Assembly: GCA_030424845.1 (NCBI GenBank)
Contig: JAUHWC010000004.1
Location: 62,001 to 126,000, forward strand
Direction of reading: 5' to 3'
Source of the DNA: Alphaproteobacteria bacterium
GTDB lineage: Bacteria > Pseudomonadota > Alphaproteobacteria > Sphingomonadales > Sphingomonadaceae
DNA: 64,000 nt
The notes beneath the pieces were generated by a model, which was given only the letters and a program-made list of their open reading frames with translations, made no database searches and was not told where the DNA came from. This document shows positions 11,184 through 36,085 of the stretch, piece by piece (position 1 is the first letter of the stretch; every line of letters begins with the position of its first letter). The position numbers were made by a program, and so were the translations under genes.

Positions 11184-12716
11184 TCAGGCTTCGGTTTCTT
11201 GCCCAACCTTCTTCTTGCGGCGGCGACGCGCTGCGACCGCACCGGCGCCTGCACCGAACAGCAACAGCATGCCGGGTTCGGGCACCTGCGTGCCGGAACT
11301 GGTGCCGCCGGAAGACGAACTCGAGCCGGACGAGCTGGACGAGCTGCTGGAGGATGAGCTGCTGCTCGAAGACGAAGAACCGCTCGAGGAGGAGCTGCTG
11401 CCCGAAGAAGACGAGCCTGTAGACGACGAGCCGGTGGAGCTTGTCATGTTGCCCGAACTCGAGGAGCTGGAACTGGACGAACTCGACGAGGACGAACTGC
11501 TGGACGACGAGCCCGAGCTGCCACCCGACGAACCGCCCGATCCACCCGAAACGCCCGAAGACGAGGACGAGCTCGAGGAACTCGAGGAGGAACTGCTGCT
11601 CGAAGACGAGCCCGAGCTGCCACCCGAGGAGCCGCACGAGCCACCGGACGAGGAACTCGAACCGGAGGAACCGGAGCTACCGCCACTGCTACCACCCGAG
11701 GAGCCGCCCGAACCTCCCGAGCCACCCGACGAGGAGGAGCTGGAGGAAGACGAACTCGACGACGACGAGGAGCTGGAAGAACTCGACGAACTCGAGGAGG
11801 ACACATTGCCGCTCGAAGAGGATACATTGCCCGAGCTGCTGGAGACACCGCCCGTGGAACTGGAGACATTGCCGCTCGAGGACGACACGTTGCCCGAGGT
11901 GGTCGAGGTCGTGCTCGTGACACCACCGGTCGAGGTGGAGACACCGCCAGTGGAGGTCGAGACACCACCGGTCGAGGTGGAGGTGCTCACGCTACCGGTC
12001 GAGGTGCTGACACCACCGGTCGTCGTCGATGTCGAGGAGCCGCCCGATCCGCCCGAAGATGTCGAGGTGGACGAGCCGGTGCTCGAATTGTCGATGTTGA
12101 TGTCGATGTAGATATCGCCACCACCGCTGCTCGAGCCGGTCGAGCCGGTCGAGGAACTCGGCGGCGAGGGAGGCGGAGCCGGATCGCCGGAAGAACTCGG
12201 CGGCGGCGGAGACGGCGGCGGCGAGGGATCGCCGGAGGACGTCGGCGGTGTGCCGCTGGTCGTACCGCTGCTGCCGGACGTGGAGGTAGTGGTGGTGGTC
12301 GACAGGTCGATGTTGGCGCTGCCGCCACCACCGCTGCCGCCGAAGAAGCCGCCGAAGAAGCCACCACCGAAGCCGCCGCCGAAGCCGCCGGAGCCACCGA
12401 TGATGATCGGCTGGCCACCGCCGCCGCCGCGAACGGGCGAACCCTGGGGAAGCGGGAGCGGGGGCAGCGGCAGGGGCAGCGGCTCGGGCTCCACTTCAAC
12501 CACGCGGCGAATGCGGCGCGTTTCACGCGGCGGGATTTCGCGGCGAGCCGGAACATCCTTCACATAAGCCAGTTCGGGCGCGGCTTGCTGGTCCTTGTCG
12601 GACTTGTAGCTGACCTCGTTAGCCTGCGGCTCGGCAACATGAACTGCGCCACCCACCGCAAGGGCACTGCCCGCGGCGGCTGCCGACAATTTCGCAAGGG
12701 CCATTCTTACCGACAT
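11184..12716 (-). CDS. Ser/Gly/Thr-rich PEP-CTERM sorting-domain protein
   Basis: The 510-residue product starts with a signal-like segment (MSVRMALAKLSAAAAGSALAV). A Pro-rich stretch near residues 70-95 is followed by a Gly/Phe-rich part, and then several hundred residues of low-complexity Ser, Gly and Thr with repeating units such as STSTGGV, SSSGNV and SSGSS. The C-terminus is a textbook PEP-CTERM signal: VPEPG, then LLLFGAGAGAVAA, then RRRRKKK. Such proteins are handled by exosortase and usually reach the envelope or exopolymer matrix; no exosortase gene is in the window. I chose the ATG at 12716 because it follows a GAAGAGAGA site and directly precedes the leader. Confidence 0.75.
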   Translation of the reverse strand: MSVRMALAKLSAAAAGSALAVGGAVHVAEPQANEVSYKSDKDQQAAPELAYVKDVPARREIPPRETRRIRRVVEVEPEPLPLPLPPLPLPQGSPVRGGGGGQPIIIGGSGGFGGGFGGGFFGGFFGGSGGGGSANIDLSTTTTTSTSGSSGTTSGTPPTSSGDPSPPPSPPPPSSSGDPAPPPSPPSSSTGSTGSSSGGGDIYIDINIDNSSTGSSTSTSSGGSGGSSTSTTTGGVSTSTGSVSTSTSTGGVSTSTGGVSTSTGGVTSTTSTTSGNVSSSSGNVSSSTGGVSSSSGNVSSSSGNVSSSSSSSSSSSSSSSSSSSSSSSSSGGSGGSGGSSGGSSGGSSGSSGSSSSSGGSCGSSGGSSGSSSSSSSSSSSSSSSSSSGVSGGSGGSSGGSSGSSSSSSSSSSSSSSSSSSSGNMTSSTGSSSTGSSSSGSSSSSSGSSSSSSSSSSSSSSSSSGSSSSSGGTSSGTQVPEPGMLLLFGAGAGAVAARRRRKKKVGQETEA

Positions 12717-12946
12717 GCTTGTCTCTCTTCGCGTTTTCCCATCGACCGGGTGAGGCCATTTGCGGCCAATACGGTCCTTCCAACGCTGCCAAAGAGACCT
12801 GCCTTGCCTCCAGTGACAATGGCAAACGGCCCTAAATCGCTGCCGCCAAGGCAGTTTTTTGGCGCTTTTCGATGCCCGCGCCCCGCTTTGTCCCACAATG
12901 GAACCGAAACGCAGGCCAATTCCTAATAAAGGTTAATGCATAAAGG
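12717..12946 (-). other. Leader/promoter region of the PEP-CTERM gene
   Basis: These 230 bases between ruvB and the PEP-CTERM gene hold no convincing coding sequence. The ruvB-proximal part (about 12915-12950) is AT-rich, with TTAATG/TAATAAAGG runs that could hold a promoter for the minus-strand gene. A GCCAAAAAACTGCC-type hairpin lies near 12850. No clear -35/-10 pair can be assigned by eye. Confidence 0.35.
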
Positions 12947-13987
12947 CTATTTTCCGGGATCGAACAGCCCTGCCTGCCCGCCATTTGCCGAATCACCCGG
13001 CGGTTGCAGCCCCAGGTGGGCCCAGCCCCCGGCATTGAGGCACCGTCCCCGCGCCGTGCGGGCGACGAGGCCCAGCTGGATCAGGTAGGGTTCGACCACC
13101 TCCTCCACCGTGTCACGCGGTTCAGACAGGCCCGCGGCGAGCGTTTCCACCCCCACCGGGCCACCGGCATAAGTTTCGGCGATCATGGTTAAATAGCGCC
13201 GGTCCATCGCATCGAGCCCGAGGCCGTCGATCTCCAGCCTGGTGAGCGCCTTGTCCGCGACATCGGCCGTCACCACCCCGCCGCCGCCGACATGGGCAAA
13301 ATCGCGCACGCGGCGCATCAACCGGCCGGCCACCCGCGGCGTGCCGCGCGAACGGCGGGCAATCTCGCGCGCGCCCGCGGGGTCTATTTCCATGCCGAGA
13401 AGCATTGCCCCGCGCGTCACCACCCGCTCCAGCTCCTCCTCGGTGTAGAAATTGAGGCGCACCGGAATGCCGAAACGGTCCCGCAAAGGGGTGGTCAGCA
13501 GGCCCTGCCGCGTGGTCGCGCCCACCAGCGTGAAGGGCGGCAGATCGATCCGCACACTGCGCGCGGACGGCCCCTCGCCAATGATGATGTCGAGCGCGCG
13601 GTCCTCCATCGCGGGATAGAGCACTTCCTCCACCACGGGATTGAGGCGGTGGATCTCGTCAATGAACAGCACGTCATTGGGTTCAAGATTGGTGAGCAGC
13701 GCGGCAAGGTCTCCCGCCTTGGCGATCACCGGACCGGACGTGGCGCGGAAACCCACGCCCAGCTCCTTCGCCACGATCTGCGCCAGCGTGGTCTTGCCCA
13801 ATCCGGGCGGGCCGAAGAACAGCACGTGGTCCATCGCCTCGCCGCGTCCCTTGGCGGCTTCGATGAACACGCGCAGGTTCTCGCGTGCGGCCTGCTGCCC
13901 GACGAATTCGGCCAGCGATTTCGGGCGCAGCGCCGCGTCCGGGTCCTCCGGCAGGCGGTTGGGGGTGAGGTCAGGGTTGGTGGTCAT
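12947..13987 (-). CDS. ruvB: Holliday junction branch-migration helicase RuvB
   Basis: This 346-residue AAA+ ATPase drives RuvA-bound Holliday junction migration. It has Walker [13 protein letters not shown] near residue 65, Walker [10 protein letters not shown], the sensor motif GATTRQGLL, and the C-terminal winged-helix domain ending in a short tail. The N-terminal [17 protein letters not shown] segment is typical for alphaproteobacteria. It lies downstream of ruvA on the same strand but is separated from it by about 640 bp that contain an inverted-repeat-bounded GIY-YIG gene on the other strand. Confidence 0.97.
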
Positions 13988-14015
13988 TGTGGATGCATCC
14001 CAAACGACCTCGCTT

Positions 14016-14045
14016 CGTCACCCCGGACTTGATCCGGGGTCCATC
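14016..14045 (+). repeat. Left arm of 30-bp perfect inverted repeat
   Basis: The arm is an exact reverse complement of 14389-14418 (30 of 30 bases). Its core, CCCCGGACTTGATCCGGGG, is itself a hairpin with a 7-bp stem and the loop CTTGA, so each arm resembles a REP-type palindrome. It lies 19 bases upstream of the GIY-YIG start codon. Confidence 0.85.
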
Positions 14046-14064
14046 GGGAGGCAGGCTCAGCCTC

Positions 14065-14382
14065 ATGCCATTCGAGCGCCAGCCTTGCGTCTACATCCTT
14101 GCGAGCGAACCCCACGGAACGCTGTACATCGGCGTCACATCCGACCTCATCCAGCGCCTGTGGCAGCATCGCGAGGCTCAGGTTCCGGGGTTCACCAGCC
14201 GTTACAAAGTCCACCGCCTCGTCCGTTACGAACTGTTCGACGACATGGAGAATGCCATTGCTCGTGAAAAGCAGCTCAAGAATTGGCAAAGGCGCTGGAA
14301 GATCGAACTGATCGAGAGTGAAAACCCCGACTGGCATGATCTGGCGGTTGGGTTGGGGTTGAAGCCGCTGGCTCCGCGCTGA
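14065..14382 (+). CDS. GIY-YIG nuclease-superfamily protein (UPF0213-like)
   Basis: The 105-residue protein is a stand-alone GIY-YIG domain. The signature appears as VYIL then LYIGVTSDL near residues 10-25, followed by RLWQHR with the conserved Arg, and a C-terminal REKQLKNWQRRWKIELI segment with a candidate catalytic Glu. I chose the ATG at 14065, which places the signature at the usual distance from the N-terminus; an upstream ATG at 13987 would translate the repeat arm. The gene runs opposite to ruvA and ruvB and is tightly enclosed by 30-bp inverted repeats. Small GIY-YIG proteins of this kind are common in alphaproteobacteria; the function is unproven. Confidence 0.82.
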   Translation: MPFERQPCVYILASEPHGTLYIGVTSDLIQRLWQHREAQVPGFTSRYKVHRLVRYELFDDMENAIAREKQLKNWQRRWKIELIESENPDWHDLAVGLGLKPLAPR

Positions 14383-14388
14383 TGGCGG

Positions 14389-14418
14389 GATGGACCCCGG
14401 ATCAAGTCCGGGGTGACG
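14389..14418 (+). repeat. Right arm of 30-bp perfect inverted repeat
   Basis: This arm begins six bases after the GIY-YIG stop codon and pairs exactly with 14016-14045. The whole unit from arm to arm is 403 bp. The internal hairpin GGACCCCGGATCAAGTCCGG-type core could also act as a transcription barrier. I see no obvious target-site duplication outside the arms. Confidence 0.85.
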
Positions 14419-14629
14419 GTCGGTGGATGCGGCGAAGGTCATTTCCACAACTGACCCTTTCGAACTATCTTGCAATGATAGCACGCGGAAAAATGGCCAT
14501 CTTGATTATACCATACATGGCGACCGCCCGAAGCCTCGCAATCCGTGCCTTTCGGCAAGAGGGGTAATAGCGACCATGGCGACATTCGGCGTAGTCTTGT
14601 TCGCCAGCGATAGGGCTGTGTGTCTTCCA

Positions 14630-15241
14630 TCACCCCGCCGCCCTCTTCAGCGCAACTCGGATCAACTCGCTCTCGCCAGCGCCCTCGCCCAGTTCGGCTT
14701 GTGCGCGGGCCACCGCCTGTGCGGCGACCGCAGGCTTGAAGCCGAGGTTTTCCAGCGCGCTCACCGCATCGGCGCTGGCAGAACCGGCAGGGGTTGCTGC
14801 CACCGACACACCGCCAGCAGCGGCACCGCCACCGGGCAATGCACCCGCCTTGTCCTTCAACTCGTTGACGATGCGGCCCGCCAGTTTGGGGCCAACGCCC
14901 TTGGCGCGGGCGATTGCGGCGGCATCGACGGCTGCGCAGGCATCGCGCACTTCGCCGGTGCTGAGCGCGGAAAGGATGGCCAGCGCCACCTTGGACCCAA
15001 CGCCCTGAACGCTCGTCAGTAAGCGGAACCAGTCGCGTTCTCCCGCCTCGGCGAAACCGAGCAGGCGCATGTCGTTCTCGCTCACCTGCAAATCGGTGTA
15101 GACGGTGCAGGCCTCGCCCTTCTCGCCCAGCGCGTTCAATGTCTTGGATGAGCAATGGACGAGGTAGCCCACGCCCTGCACATCAATCACCGCCCAGTCT
15201 TCACCGGTTTCGTCAAGCAGGCCTTTGAGCTTCGCGATCAT
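14630..15241 (-). CDS. ruvA: Holliday junction DNA helicase component RuvA
   Basis: The 203-residue protein binds the four-way junction and loads RuvB. It starts MIAKLKGLLDETGEDW (domain I), carries two helix-hairpin-helix motifs (LLTSVQGVGSKVAL and IARAKGVGPKLAG, domain II), an Ala/Gly-rich flexible linker, and the C-terminal RuvB-binding domain (about 155-203, ALENLGFKPAVA). I chose the ATG at 15241 by alignment to the family N-terminus. ruvC is not adjacent; aroC diverges upstream. The 211 bp to the right repeat arm contain nothing I can identify. Confidence 0.96.
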   Translation of the reverse strand: MIAKLKGLLDETGEDWAVIDVQGVGYLVHCSSKTLNALGEKGEACTVYTDLQVSENDMRLLGFAEAGERDWFRLLTSVQGVGSKVALAILSALSTGEVRDACAAVDAAAIARAKGVGPKLAGRIVNELKDKAGALPGGGAAAGGVSVAATPAGSASADAVSALENLGFKPAVAAQAVARAQAELGEGAGESELIRVALKRAAG

Positions 15242-15289
15242 GTTATGTTCTTGCCACTGCCCCGCGCGAAACGCCAGCGCATGTTGCCC

Positions 15290-15350
15290 CTTATCCGCAA
15301 GGCGCGGCGTTAACATCTGGAACACATGGAACACGGTTATTGGCGGGAAA
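15290..15350 (+). repeat. Dispersed element, copy near aroC/ruvA
   Basis: CTTATCCGCAAGG is followed by CATCTGG, TGGAACACATGGAACACGGT (15318-15337) and GGGAAAA. The same parts in the same order and orientation recur downstream of dnaA (about 43513-43605), with the 20-mer identical. The 20-mer is a near-perfect 9-bp direct repeat. It lies in the divergent ruvA/aroC gap, so it may be regulatory or a small dispersed repeat. Confidence 0.5.
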
Positions 15351-15487
15351 AACTTCCCGGCTCGCACCGGCCCTGTCACATTGTCGGTCAAGCGGGGGTT
15401 CAGGCAGGACATGAGCGCAGGTCTGCCCCGGGTTCGCACGAGTAGGAAATGGACAGCGCGAAAATTCTGCGCCAAAGGCTCTGCACC

Positions 15488-16561
15488 ATGAGCATGAACA
15501 CATTCGGACGCGTTTTCCGCTTCACCACCTGGGGTGAAAGCCACGGGCCTGCCCTGGGTGCGGTGGTGGACGGGTGCCCGCCCGGGCTGACAGTGAGCGA
15601 AGAGGACATCCAGCCGTTCCTCGATGCGCGCCGACCCGGCACCAGCCGCTTTACCACCCAGCGCAACGAGCCGGACCAGGTGAAGATCCTTTCGGGCGTG
15701 TTCGAAGGCAAGACCACCGGCACGCCGATCAGCCTGATGATCGAGAACACCGATCAGCGGTCCAAGGATTATGGCGAGATCGCCAAGGCCTATCGCCCCG
15801 GCCATGCCGACTATGCCTATGACACGAAATACGGCCATCGCGATTATCGTGGCGGGGGGCGCTCTTCAGCACGCGAGACGGCAGCACGCGTGGCGGCTGG
15901 CGCCATTGCGCGCCTGGTGATCCCCGAAGTGACGGTGATTGCCTATGTCAGCGCCATCGGCGGCGACGAGATCGACCGCAGCAATGTGGACTATTCCTTC
16001 ATCGACCAGAACCCCTTCTTCTGCCCCGATCGTGCTGCTGCCGAACGGTGGGAGAAGCTGGTGGACGAGGCACGCAAGGCAGGCTCGTCCCTCGGCGCGA
16101 CGGTGGAATGCGTTGCCACCGGCGTTCCCGCCGGCTGGGGCGCGCCGCTCTATGCCAAGCTCGATGCAGAGCTGGCCGCCGCGATGATGGGCATCAACGC
16201 GGTGAAGGGCGTGGAGATCGGCGAAGGCATGGCGGCAGCTGCCTTGCGCGGTGAAGACAATGCGGACGAGATGCGCCCCGGTGCCGAAGGCGAAGGCCCG
16301 GAGTTCCTTGCCAACCATGCAGGCGGGATTGCGGGCGGCATCTCCACCGGCCAGCCGGTTGTGTGCCGCGTGGCGTTCAAGCCGACCAGTTCGATCCTGA
16401 TCCCGCGCCAGTCGATCAACTCGCAAGGCGAGGCGGTCGATATCCGCACCAAGGGCCGCCACGACCCCTGCGTGGGCATCCGCGGCGCGCCGGTTGTCGA
16501 AGCGATGATGGCGCTGGTGCTGGCGGACCAGAAGCTGCTGCACCGGGCGCAAATCGGTTGA
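15488..16561 (+). CDS. aroC: Chorismate synthase
   Basis: The 357-residue FMN-dependent enzyme makes chorismate from EPSP in the last common step of the shikimate pathway. Signatures are [18 protein letters not shown] near the N-terminus, [14 protein letters not shown] in the middle, and RGRHDPC-type ([10 protein letters not shown]) near the C-terminus. The first ATG of [10 protein letters not shown] at 15488 fits the family; a second ATG six bases later is possible. The gene diverges from ruvA. Its stop codon lies inside a strong hairpin. Confidence 0.96.
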
Positions 16562-33981: not shown

Positions 33982-34440
33982 CTAAAGAGCCGCGTGCCCG
34001 CCGGTGGAGCCGAAGCCGCCGCTCCCGCGCGTGGTGTCGTCCAGCTCTTCCACCTCGTCCCACACCGCCAGGGTGACGGGGGAGACGACCAGCTGGGCAA
34101 TGCGGTCACCGCGCTGGATGGTGAAATTGTCCTGCGAATGGTTGATCAGGATCACCTTCAGCTCGCCGCGATAGTCTGAATCCACGGTGCCGGGCGTATT
34201 GGGCACCGAAATGCCGTGCTTCAGGGCAAGGCCCGAACGCGGGCGGACCTGGATCTCGTAACCGGGCGGGATCGCCACGGCGAGGCCGGTGCCCACCGCA
34301 GCACGAGCGCCGGGGCGCAGGATCAGCGGTTCCGCCGCCAGCACATCCATGCCTGCCGCGCCGTCCGTGGCATAGGCGGGCAGGTCCAGGCCGTGGCCAT
34401 GCGGCAAGCGCTTGATGCGCACGGGAACGCGATCAGGCAT
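33982..34440 (-). CDS. dut: Deoxyuridine 5'-triphosphate nucleotidohydrolase
   Basis: The 152-residue trimeric dUTPase hydrolyses dUTP, keeping uracil out of DNA and feeding dTMP synthesis. All five motifs are visible: [41 protein letters not shown] and the C-terminal [10 protein letters not shown]. The ATG at 34440 overlaps the coaBC stop by eight bases, so the two genes are translationally linked, an order conserved in alphaproteobacteria. Confidence 0.97.
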
Positions 34441-36085
34441 CGGCCTTCTCCAGGTGCTCGGCAATGCTTTCGACCAGCTTCCAGGCCACCTCGGTCTTGC
34501 TCATTTCTTCCCAGTCCTCGACATTGCGCTCGCGCACGATATGCACCTTGTTGTTGGCGCCGCCCATCACATCGCCTGATACGTCATTGGCGACGATCCA
34601 GTCCACGCCCTTGCTCTTGCGCTTCTTGCGGGCGTGTTCGACCACCTTTTCCGTTTCGGCGGCAAAGCCGATCAGCAGGTCGGGACGCTTGGAACTGGCG
34701 GCGACCATCGCCAGGATATCGGGGTTCTCGGTCAGCAGCAGTGCCGGCGGGGCAGAGCCGCGCTTCTTGATCTTTTCCTCGTGGAAATCCTTGGTACGCC
34801 AGTCAGCCACCGCAGCGACCATGATGGCGCAATCGGCGGGCAGCGCTTCCTTGACGGCCTTGAGCATTTCCTCGGCGCTTTCCACGTCGATCCGGTCCAC
34901 GCCGAGCGGGGTATCGAGATGCACCGGGCCTGCCACCAGCGTGACGCGCGCGCCGGCAGCTGCCGCAGCCTCGGCAATGGCGAAGCCCTGCTTGCCGGAG
35001 GACCGGTTGGCGATGTAGCGCACCGGGTCGATCGGCTCATGCGTGGGGCCGGCGGTCACCAGCACATGCTTGCCGTAGAGCGGGCGATGTTCGGGATCGT
35101 CGTCGAAGGCGGGCTGGCCCTCGAGCGGGTCTGCCATCACCTTGGCCATCGCACCCACCGGGGCCGCGGCCTCCTCGCCCTCGAAGGGTTCGGGCGCGGA
35201 CTGGCGGGCGTTGACGGTGTGGTTGATGGCTTCGCGATCGGTCGGCGGCGCGGCAGAGGCGGCACCCTTGCGGGCCAGCACCGGCGCGGCATCGGGATCG
35301 GGTTCGGGCAGTTCGGGCCCGACATGGCCTTCGCCGTCCTCGCCGGCATCGGGCAGGTCATCGCCGCCCTTGCCCCTGCCTGTCGAACGCTGGATGATCG
35401 AACCGAGCAAGCCGCCAAGGCCGCCGGCGCTTGCGCCATCTTCCTGGCGATCGGGAAGCGGATCGACGATCTCGAAATCCTCTTCCTCCACTTCCTCTTC
35501 CGCCAGGCGGCGCAGTTCGGCAGCGATCCTCTCGTGCTCGGCATCGGGATCGAGCATGGCGGCAATCTCGCGGATCACGTCACGCGGTTCGGGCAGGCGG
35601 CCACGACCGAATTCGCCGCACGCCATCTCGCCTTCATCCGGCAGCATCACGCGCACGCCGCTGTCGGAAAGCCACTGCACATTGCGCAGGGTCGCCTCGT
35701 GTTCCCACATGCGCACGTTCATGGCCGGCACGCACAGCACCGGCTTGTCCGTTGCCAGGATCAGCGTGGTGCCCATGTCATCGGCGATACCGGCAGCCAT
35801 CTTGGCCATCAGGTCCGCCGTGGCCGGGCAGACGACCACGAGGTCGGCATCGCGGCTCAACTGGATATGGCCGATCTCGGCCTCGTTCTTGAGGTCCCAC
35901 AGGCTGGTGTGCACCTGGTTGCCGGACAAGGCGGCGAGCGCCATCGGGGTAACGAACTGCGCGCCGCCATTGGTCAGCACGCAGGTGACATCGCCCCCAC
36001 CCTTGCGGATGAGGCGCACCAGTTCGCATGACTTGTAGGCAGCGATCCCGCCGCCCACGACCAGGAGTATGCGTGGCCCGTCCAT
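34433..36085 (-). CDS. coaBC: Bifunctional CoaBC with an unusually long acidic linker
   Basis: The flavoprotein couples cysteine to phosphopantothenate (CoaB) and decarboxylates the product (CoaC) in coenzyme A synthesis. CoaC (about 1-177) shows [27 protein letters not shown] and [11 protein letters not shown]. CoaB (about 336-550) begins [19 protein letters not shown] and contains RSSGKQGFA and the VANDV motif. Between them are about 155 extra residues, rich in Glu, Asp, Pro and Gly, that the usual ~400-residue protein lacks. The frame stays open and the codon use looks normal, so it seems a genuine insertion. Confidence 0.95.

Follow-up and report, generated by a model that had tools for sequence, protein, structure and literature searches.

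The closest described relatives of the palindromes reported here are the CGTC REPs, a superfamily for which the 2013 description gives no association with transposase genes ("lacking a dedicated transposase"; PMC3733652). In the accessible part of that publication, these REPs are characterized by their tag, a stem of 8 to 9 bp in which pairs 1 and 2 are "almost invariably" A.T, a loop of 4 to 5 nt, a CCA tail, and an arrangement in inverted doublets; its authors considered two explanations, loss of a dedicated enzyme or service by many transposases, and REPs were hypothesized to act in transcription termination and mRNA stabilization. Also close are the REPIN-RAYT systems which, as far as the accessible portions of PMC3116915 and PMC8266576 describe them, share with the elements analyzed below the placing of a gene between inverted REPs, the occurrence of gene-free inverted doublets, several types per genome with mostly a single gene copy each, and a repeat type that tracks the enzyme clade. 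The enzyme of our locus, however, is a GIY-YIG protein, not HUH/Y1, and its tag is CGTC, not GTAG, so the unit is not a member of the REPIN-RAYT group. GIY-YIG is, according to the available part of PMC1564403, a homing-nuclease fold. No published link between GIY-YIG proteins and REPs was found by title or opening of the abstract among journal papers, few of them from subscription titles, nor did any paper whose text was scanned combine CGTC, REPs, and GIY-YIG; prior publication is thus possible.

The window, i.e., the whole 64-kb stretch of DNA analyzed, contains the following features.

12947..13987, minus strand: ruvB, host context, neighbor of the unit
14016..14045, plus strand: left arm, CGTC REP; tag at 14016-14019, facing outward, stem-loop-stem at 14020-14040, CCA tail, then TC
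14046..14064, plus strand: leader; ATG lies 24 bp past the REP stem
14065..14382, plus strand: GIY-YIG nuclease gene (P0001), 105 aa; ATG at 14065, TGA at 14382
14383..14388, plus strand: trailer; REP stem follows the stop codon by 11 bp, the same as in loci L013 and L016
14389..14418, minus strand: right arm, CGTC REP identical to the left one and inverted, tag facing outward
14630..15241, minus strand: ruvA, host context, neighbor of the unit

The initial annotation had described a GIY-YIG gene tightly enclosed by perfect 30-bp inverted repeats, each with its own hairpin, in reverse orientation between ruvA and ruvB, and the recomputed geometry bears this out. The arms, 14016-14045 and 14389-14418, are identical at 30/30 positions with 343 nt between them, and fold (as RNA) into hairpins of -14.7 and -16.4 kcal/mol; the unit measures 403 bp, with 19 nt ahead of the start codon and 6 past the stop; and the gene lies antisense to both ruvB and ruvA, which flank the unit. 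The ORF at 12947-13987 is one that we take to be ruvB from its family, and its protein matches downstream of ruvA in 28 of 30 relatives' loci. The 24-bp spacing between REP stem and ATG is kept in 10 of the 11 units of the P0001 clade in the genus, the start being uncertain in the remaining one (L011), and in L012, L014, L017, L038, and L018 the protein extends into the REP (-7).

Each arm consists of CGTC, an 8-bp stem (ACCCCGGA/TCCGGGGT), the 5-nt loop CTTGA, and the CCA tail, the left-arm stem-loop-stem at 14020-14040 being closed by an A.T pair. The hairpins that the annotation called "REP-like" are thus CGTC-tagged REPs and have to be distinguished from the GTAG REPs of the RAYT kind. With the CGTC REPs they share the unpaired tag, the 8-bp stem, the 5-nt loop, and the CCA tail, and differ in having A.T only at the first stem pair instead of the first and second; the accessible text of PMC3733652 mentions no GIY-YIG partner (the term "GIY-YIG" occurs 0 times in it), whereas here a GIY-YIG gene adjoins. 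At up to 4 mismatches, no further copies of the 19-nt arm core were found elsewhere in the 64-kb window. The 2.83-Mb genome to which it belongs holds 5 copies at up to 2 mismatches, 2 of them the arms (reversed-pattern control, 0), with no doublets seen around the 3 gene-free ones, and copy numbers range from 0 to 130 across 199 genomes of the family, 85 of which have any. No Rfam family matched 12900-15500 at E values up to 1.

P0001 matches the Pfam GIY-YIG family at E = 2.4e-14 (53.8 bits; cut-off, 22.6), and neither the domain search nor the fold model matched a second domain in its 105 aa. In an alignment of 66 sequences Y10, Y21, R31, H35, and N87 are invariant and E68 nearly so; the conserved Tyr, Arg, and Glu are presumably the catalytic residues. 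The structure predicted from the same number of sequences is a bare GIY-YIG fold (pLDDT, 89.9) matching GIY-YIG entries in the PDB with TM scores of 0.4 to 0.5. The sole match under E = 0.001 is the UPF0213 structure 1zg2 (7.4e-4), followed by the branched-DNA nuclease Slx1 and UvrC at E values of 0.008 and above. Fold and size are shared with UPF0213 proteins (1zg2, 1ywl) and with the Slx1/UvrC GIY-YIG domains, identity to 1zg2 in the fold match being 28%, and the profile match to 1zg2 reaches E = 3.3e-10. The suggestion that such genes are filed as UPF0213 needs qualifying, the link being no more than a resemblance in profile and fold: P0001 matched no NCBIfam family, and 17 of the 23 plasmid matches with an annotated feature are labeled "GIY-YIG nuclease family protein"; 1zg2 and 1ywl themselves are catalogued as hypothetical proteins. 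The catalytic domain is also shared with homing endonucleases of the I-TevI type, in which Y6-Y17-R27-H31 have the same spacing as Y10-Y21-R31-H35 of P0001. P0001 differs from them in having no separate DNA-recognition module (such as NUMOD), the unit has its own palindromic ends, and no intron or intein was seen at it.

The GIY-YIG genes are under purifying selection: dN/dS values of 0.06 to 0.23 were obtained for 12 of 14 close pairs (dS was high in some), while of the other two pairs one is identical and one saturated. No Y1 (RAYT-type) transposase was found in the window's own genome, and in the genus Y1 genes were found in 3 of 40 genomes. None of these genus Y1 genes is flanked by a CGTC-tagged REP; the finder returned one CCTC-tagged match inside a Y1 gene.

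Recurrence of the arrangement was assessed with a strict REP finder (a tag, a loop of 3 to 6, and a stem of 7 or more that begins with A), designed after inspection of the window and of the genome's other copies. Among the best 80 of 578 confirmed relatives' loci on genome contigs, 75 have full 200-nt flanks, and an inward-facing CGTC REP lies to the left in 41/75, to the right in 45/75, on both sides in 30/75, and on either side in 56/75, leaving 19/75 in which the strict finder returned none; the corresponding counts in 416 control windows from the relatives' own loci are 5, 2, 0, and 7. A motif-free test, in which the best inverted repeat between the flanks had to score at least 16, gave 35/75 for the same best 80 of 578 loci versus 0/416 controls. 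The hosts of these best 80 of 578 are mainly Pseudomonadota, and by name include genomes and MAGs of Nitrospirota, Planctomycetota, Myxococcota, Chloroflexota, and candidate phyla, MAG contigs being liable to misbinning. Two-sided REPs occur outside Pseudomonadota in, e.g., L138 (Nitrospira lenta MAG), L143 (Planctomycetes bacterium), and L148 (Uhrbacteria MAG), and the strict finder returned none in L174 (Anaerolineae MAG).

In a later phylum-wide set, which excluded the window's own and same-genus loci and used 28 of 30 loci (4 of them truncated by the end of a contig, so that the position assumed for the gene may be wrong there), a REP was found on either side in 24/28 and on both in 15/28, compared with 3/56 single and 0/56 two-sided in the controls. 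Outside the window's family, the figures were 16/20 and 8/20. Of 398 genomes sampled from the phylum, 102 have a match at E = 1e-15 or better, no P0001 relatives were detected among 50,697 phage records, and L008, the sole UvrC locus examined, has no REP. Whether arms lie beside GIY-YIG genes more often than by chance was a check proposed in the initial annotation; they do, and the arms were not found mainly near unrelated genes. The association of GIY-YIG genes with palindromes is recurrent far beyond the window locus, a conclusion that is strongly supported, and the pattern suggests that the enzyme recognizes the repeat and may aid its spread.

Within the genus, 79 GIY-YIG places were listed in 40 genomes and 78 kept, the second piece of a broken gene (G029:C2) being dropped. 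This gene (L036) is split into two frames, and a CGTC palindrome pair still encloses both. Strong solitary matches account for 53 of the 78 places. A strict REP is found on either side of 35/53 and on both sides with proper inversion in 22/53, and an inverted repeat of at least 14 in 41/53, versus 0/106 control windows; by eye, 15 of the 18 strong matches left by the strict finder have rule-breaking CGTC or TGTC palindromes, e.g., of the CGTCATTGCGAG type. None of the 25 weaker GIY-YIG matches has a strict CGTC REP. A CTGAGCTTGTCGAAGG-type core lies close to the domain in 20/25 and on both sides in 14/25, against a background of 2 matches in 211,080 bp.

Proteins of at least 200 aa had been tried as negative controls, having no inverted repeat around the whole frame, and were rejected as such, since 10/11 have the CTGAGCTTGTCGAAGG-type palindrome. 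The core lies about 40 nt upstream of the start in those 10/11, and in 7/11 an inverted core is found near +284, inside the reading frame. These proteins are palindrome units with readthrough into the next gene. In the seven loci concerned (L223, L034, L224, L227, L035, L228, and L229), the GIY-YIG unit is fused with the following gene, the downstream palindrome being translated at about +284 and the frame continuing to about 230 aa; the fused protein of L035 has an HSHP motif that we take to be JAMM-peptidase-like. In L230 and L235-L239, a separate clade (YAYLLRCNDGSYYAGHTDDL) is represented by short GIY-YIG genes enclosed by the non-CGTC palindrome CCGCTCAGCCTGAGCTTGTCGAAGG, a type that corresponds to one supported clade in the typed tree. 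Overall, 47 of 52 genome-by-type cells contain one gene copy.

Palindrome type and nuclease clade were compared in 154 short units, comprising 65 of the 78 genus places, the best 80 of 578 genome-contig loci, and 9 plasmid loci, and excluding proteins of more than 135 aa (including L010, with its end masked by N) and the fragment L241. A typed palindrome is present on at least one side of 127/154 units and on both sides of 91/154, and in 86 of these 91 the two types match (all three counts include the best 80 of 578); among 742 control windows, 18 have at least one typed side and 1 has both. On a nuclease tree of 150 rows (without L183, L036, L231, and L202), in which 15 of 146 forks are well supported, the types require 28 changes, the shuffled mean being 81.8 and none of 200 shufflings reaching as low. 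The window unit itself is a type change on this tree, with sister units carrying GAACTTGTTTC and both window arms GGACTTGATCC. Because REP and gene are physically linked, the tracking of clades partly reflects co-inheritance, and linkage alone can produce some of the pattern, though the two ends usually agree. The palindrome types were chosen after the data had been seen, so the strict-finder tests on the best 80 of 578 loci and on the phylum-wide set are the cleaner ones.

The REP stem is under constraint. All 108 type-1 REPs that differ in their flanks (108/108) are paired at both of the variable stem pairs, in three variants, and none of the 12 unpaired combinations allowed by the pattern occurs; the pattern excludes REPs mismatched at a fixed stem position, e.g., G001:C5:107430. 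The two ends carry differing stem variants in 11/11 short-spaced type-1 doublets, 7/8 gene units, and 2/9 long-spaced doublets, the window arms being identical in this respect. Pairing is thus constant within the REP and not between arms, since the ends often have different paired variants.

The palindromes found apart from the gene, which the initial annotation had regarded as solo copies, are often inverted doublets instead, as in REPINs. Close gene-free pairs in the genus comprise, for type 1, 39 in '+-' orientation versus 1 in '-+' (123 copies) and, for type 3, 19 versus 0 (73 copies). In all, 58/59 are '+-', with the tags outward as in the gene unit, and inverted doublets likewise predominate in the available text of PMC3733652. 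Type-1 doublets are mostly spaced by 61-63 or 110-114, type-3 doublets by 35-84 (commonest, 52-57), while the REP-to-REP distance is 374 in eight '+-' type-1 gene units; in the ninth (G027), the '+' REP and then the '-' REP both follow the gene. As displayed for 36 doublets and 22 gene units (several orthologous units included), similarity ends at the tag. The base just outside it is a purine in 104/116 flanks and carries 0.52 bit, with every other position at 0.28 bit or below, and no target duplication of at least 4 nt was found in the 58 elements. The doublet spacers vary and, by eye, do not resemble the gene ends beyond CCAT...ATGG, so the doublets look REPIN-like rather than simple deletions. 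On the plasmid pGJ3-1 of Photobacterium sp. GJ3 (L186:2955-5125), seven '+-' REP doublets of one type form an array that starts 178 nt past the GIY-YIG gene and continues to the end of the stretch examined.

Whether gene-free palindromes track the gene, as the initial annotation had asked, depends on the type. Outside the unit, the mean number of type-1 REPs is 8.6 in the 9 genomes that have the cognate gene versus 0.84 in the 31 that do not (P = 5e-5) and that of type-3 REPs 5.3 in 6 versus 0.85 in 34 (P = 0.001), but for type 2 the difference (3.7 in 6 versus 1.1 in 34) is not significant (P = 0.21); genomes with a cognate gene were assigned by judgment from the genus census and the nuclease tree, and the P values are optimistic because the genomes are related. 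Type-1 REPs are present in 9 of the 31 genomes without a recognized cognate gene. An exact one-to-one match between palindrome and gene was unsupported, a unit with the CCCCGGACTTGATCCGGGG core in its flanks being found in 4/10 genomes rich in CCCCGGACTTGATCCGGGG. The richest, G200 (3.7 Mb), has 130 exact copies versus 0 to 33 in the rest of the sample, its unit having the sibling core GGGCTTGACCC. None of 6 zero-copy genomes has a unit with the CCCCGGACTTGATCCGGGG core, a comparison that is nearly circular because these genomes were picked for lacking the palindrome. In the high-copy genomes 27 of 30 strong places were examined (3 had no locus), and in the zero-copy genomes 13 of 22 listed places.

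Junctions of ruvA and ruvB free of the unit, which the annotation had proposed to look for, do exist among relatives of the genus. A P0001-type gene lies near ruvA in 8 of 30 genus loci, and of the remaining 22, ruvB is in view in 21, ruvA and ruvB abutting in G010. Where the gene is present, the REP starts 18-24 nt after ruvA in 4/8, at 212 nt in G000, and at 958 nt in G026. The genus junctions (L069-L097) contain varied extra DNA, with gaps from none (G010) to 1.4 kb; exact insertion junctions cannot be defined at this site because of the many other inserts and because the relatives are too distant. Flank homology places 8 of 9 typed type-1 units at ruvA-ruvB, with the window unit falling into the same group, so inheritance there is likely, and the copy between these genes looks mostly inherited in the genus. 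The 65 short genus units nevertheless represent 31 distinct sites, and ruvA and ruvB both adjoin 14 of the best 80 of 578 relatives' loci, including loci in other genera. Of the earlier proposal of a palindrome-associated, possibly self-mobilizing system, the association therefore holds and recurs, but "self-mobilizing" suits the family more than the window copy, which seems to have been passed on mostly at one site.

Variation at a single site is seen near fnrL on Sphingobium plasmids, where TomMM7A, TomMM15, and TomTYG46 have REP-gene-REP, TomTYG64 has just a 29-bp palindrome, tagged with CGTC at both ends (mutated in TomTYG74), and TomTYG72 and TomTYG65 have neither. Of the 5 stretches compared, 3 have a REP doublet 9 kb away and 2 lack it. 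In TomTYG74 (L287), a CTGAGCTTGTCGAAG-type inverted pair occupies the gap that in TomMM7A (L284) holds the CGTC doublet 34413-34497. On an Azospirillum lipoferum plasmid (L184:2397-2905), the suf operon is interrupted between sufB and sufC by a GIY-YIG gene that is bordered on either side by a full REP doublet, and this unit is missing from 3 relatives with 95 to 97% flanking identity, the difference between the sites being larger than the unit alone.

We propose, with a probability of roughly 0.6, that the unit represents a REP/enzyme partnership in its gene-bearing form, in which a single-domain GIY-YIG nuclease would be dedicated to CGTC REPs much like the HUH tyrosine transposase RAYT (TnpA-REP) to GTAG REPs. 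The best reading would thus be of a system resembling REPIN-RAYT but with an unrelated nuclease. Its computed support comprises the association, the near-fixed geometry, the sharp boundaries, the lack of target duplication, and the tracking of clade by type, together with stem covariation, same-orientation doublets, presence/absence at orthologous sites, purifying selection, and no Y1 in the genome. Counterpoints are the imperfect palindrome-gene match (4/10), the failure of one of three copy-number tests, and the largely inherited ruvA-ruvB copy. We infer that the protein recognizes, cleaves, and moves the REP: it would bind the REP as a hairpin or as a two-fold-symmetric site and cut the CGTC tag at its outer edge or close to it, at a boundary Y|CGTC...GACG|R; inverted doublets would be mobilized, or copied by repair, in trans; and the REP-gene-REP copy would be retained by selection and rarely move. 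GIY-YIG enzymes are known as hydrolytic nucleases, and strand transfer by one of them would therefore need host help. A stronger form of the proposal, which we consider somewhat short of an even bet, is that the GIY-YIG domain (about 90 to 110 aa) alone mobilizes a REP superfamily, cutting hairpins at the tag and spreading doublets with no help from a known transposase, integrase, or reverse transcriptase; the clades would then own distinct palindromes, at least one of them (the CTGAGCTTGTCGAAGG type) outside the CGTC class, and the whole would be a kind of mobile repeat separate from RAYT, IS, and homing elements.

A homing-like process, in which the nuclease cuts chromosomes at a REP, at a doublet, or where the junction is unoccupied and recombination then copies in the unit, leaving doublets as targets or scars, would agree with the homing-nuclease nature of the fold (PMC1564403, in its accessible part), with the alternation of unit, bare two-tagged palindrome, and neither at the fnrL site, and with the frequent ruvA-ruvB location of the P0001 clade, which extends to other genera. 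We consider it unlikely, given that P0001 is a nuclease domain only, that the doublets lie at many sites and have variable spacers of preferred length with no trace of the gene, and that flanks past the tag share little save the purine. Also improbable, and slightly more so, is a domesticated host nuclease trimming REP hairpins or cruciforms in replication, its gene having arisen in, or regulating itself via, REPs that something else moves. Purifying selection, the mostly single copy per type and genome, the long inheritance at ruvA-ruvB, and the presence of structure-selective nucleases such as Slx1 among the PDB matches would all suit such a role, but identical anatomy recurs at 31 sites among the 65 genus units and in relatives of several phyla (among the best 80 of 578), the units end at the tag, and the genome has no Y1 transposase.

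That the palindromes merely serve an ordinary small gene as a pair of terminators or as insulating hairpins is very improbable. Stable hairpins do flank the gene, and roles of REPs in termination and mRNA stabilization have been hypothesized (PMC3733652, accessible part), but the same hairpins occur as gene-free doublets in one orientation and their type tracks the nuclease clade; moreover, in 7/11 long fused genes the downstream palindrome is no terminator, since it lies within the reading frame. Chance or a local quirk of the genus, for which only the 5 core copies of the window's own genome would speak, has next to no probability and is refuted by the control windows without two-sided REPs (0/416 and 0/56) and by the REPs on either side of 16/20 loci outside the family. 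With insertion sequences and MITEs, the elements have in common terminal inverted repeats (30/30 here) and gene-bearing and gene-free forms sharing their ends. They differ in having no known transposase, no target duplication (0/58), and spacers that, by eye, are unlike deleted gene copies. Some IS families produce no target duplication either.

The proposed partnership between a GIY-YIG nuclease and CGTC REPs would be another, unrelated route to the REPIN-RAYT lifestyle and would assign a function to many genes labeled "GIY-YIG nuclease family protein" or hypothetical. In the literature since 2013, CGTC REPs figure as a widespread superfamily with no partner enzyme (PMC3733652, as far as its accessible part goes), and a recurrent, clade-specific GIY-YIG partner makes the question directly testable.

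Elsewhere in the window, a 570-aa ORF at 11184-12896 (minus strand) has very long serine/glycine runs. Its C-terminal end resembles what we take to be a PEP-CTERM sorting signal, and antisense to it, at 11215-12111, lies an open frame rich in E, L, and P.
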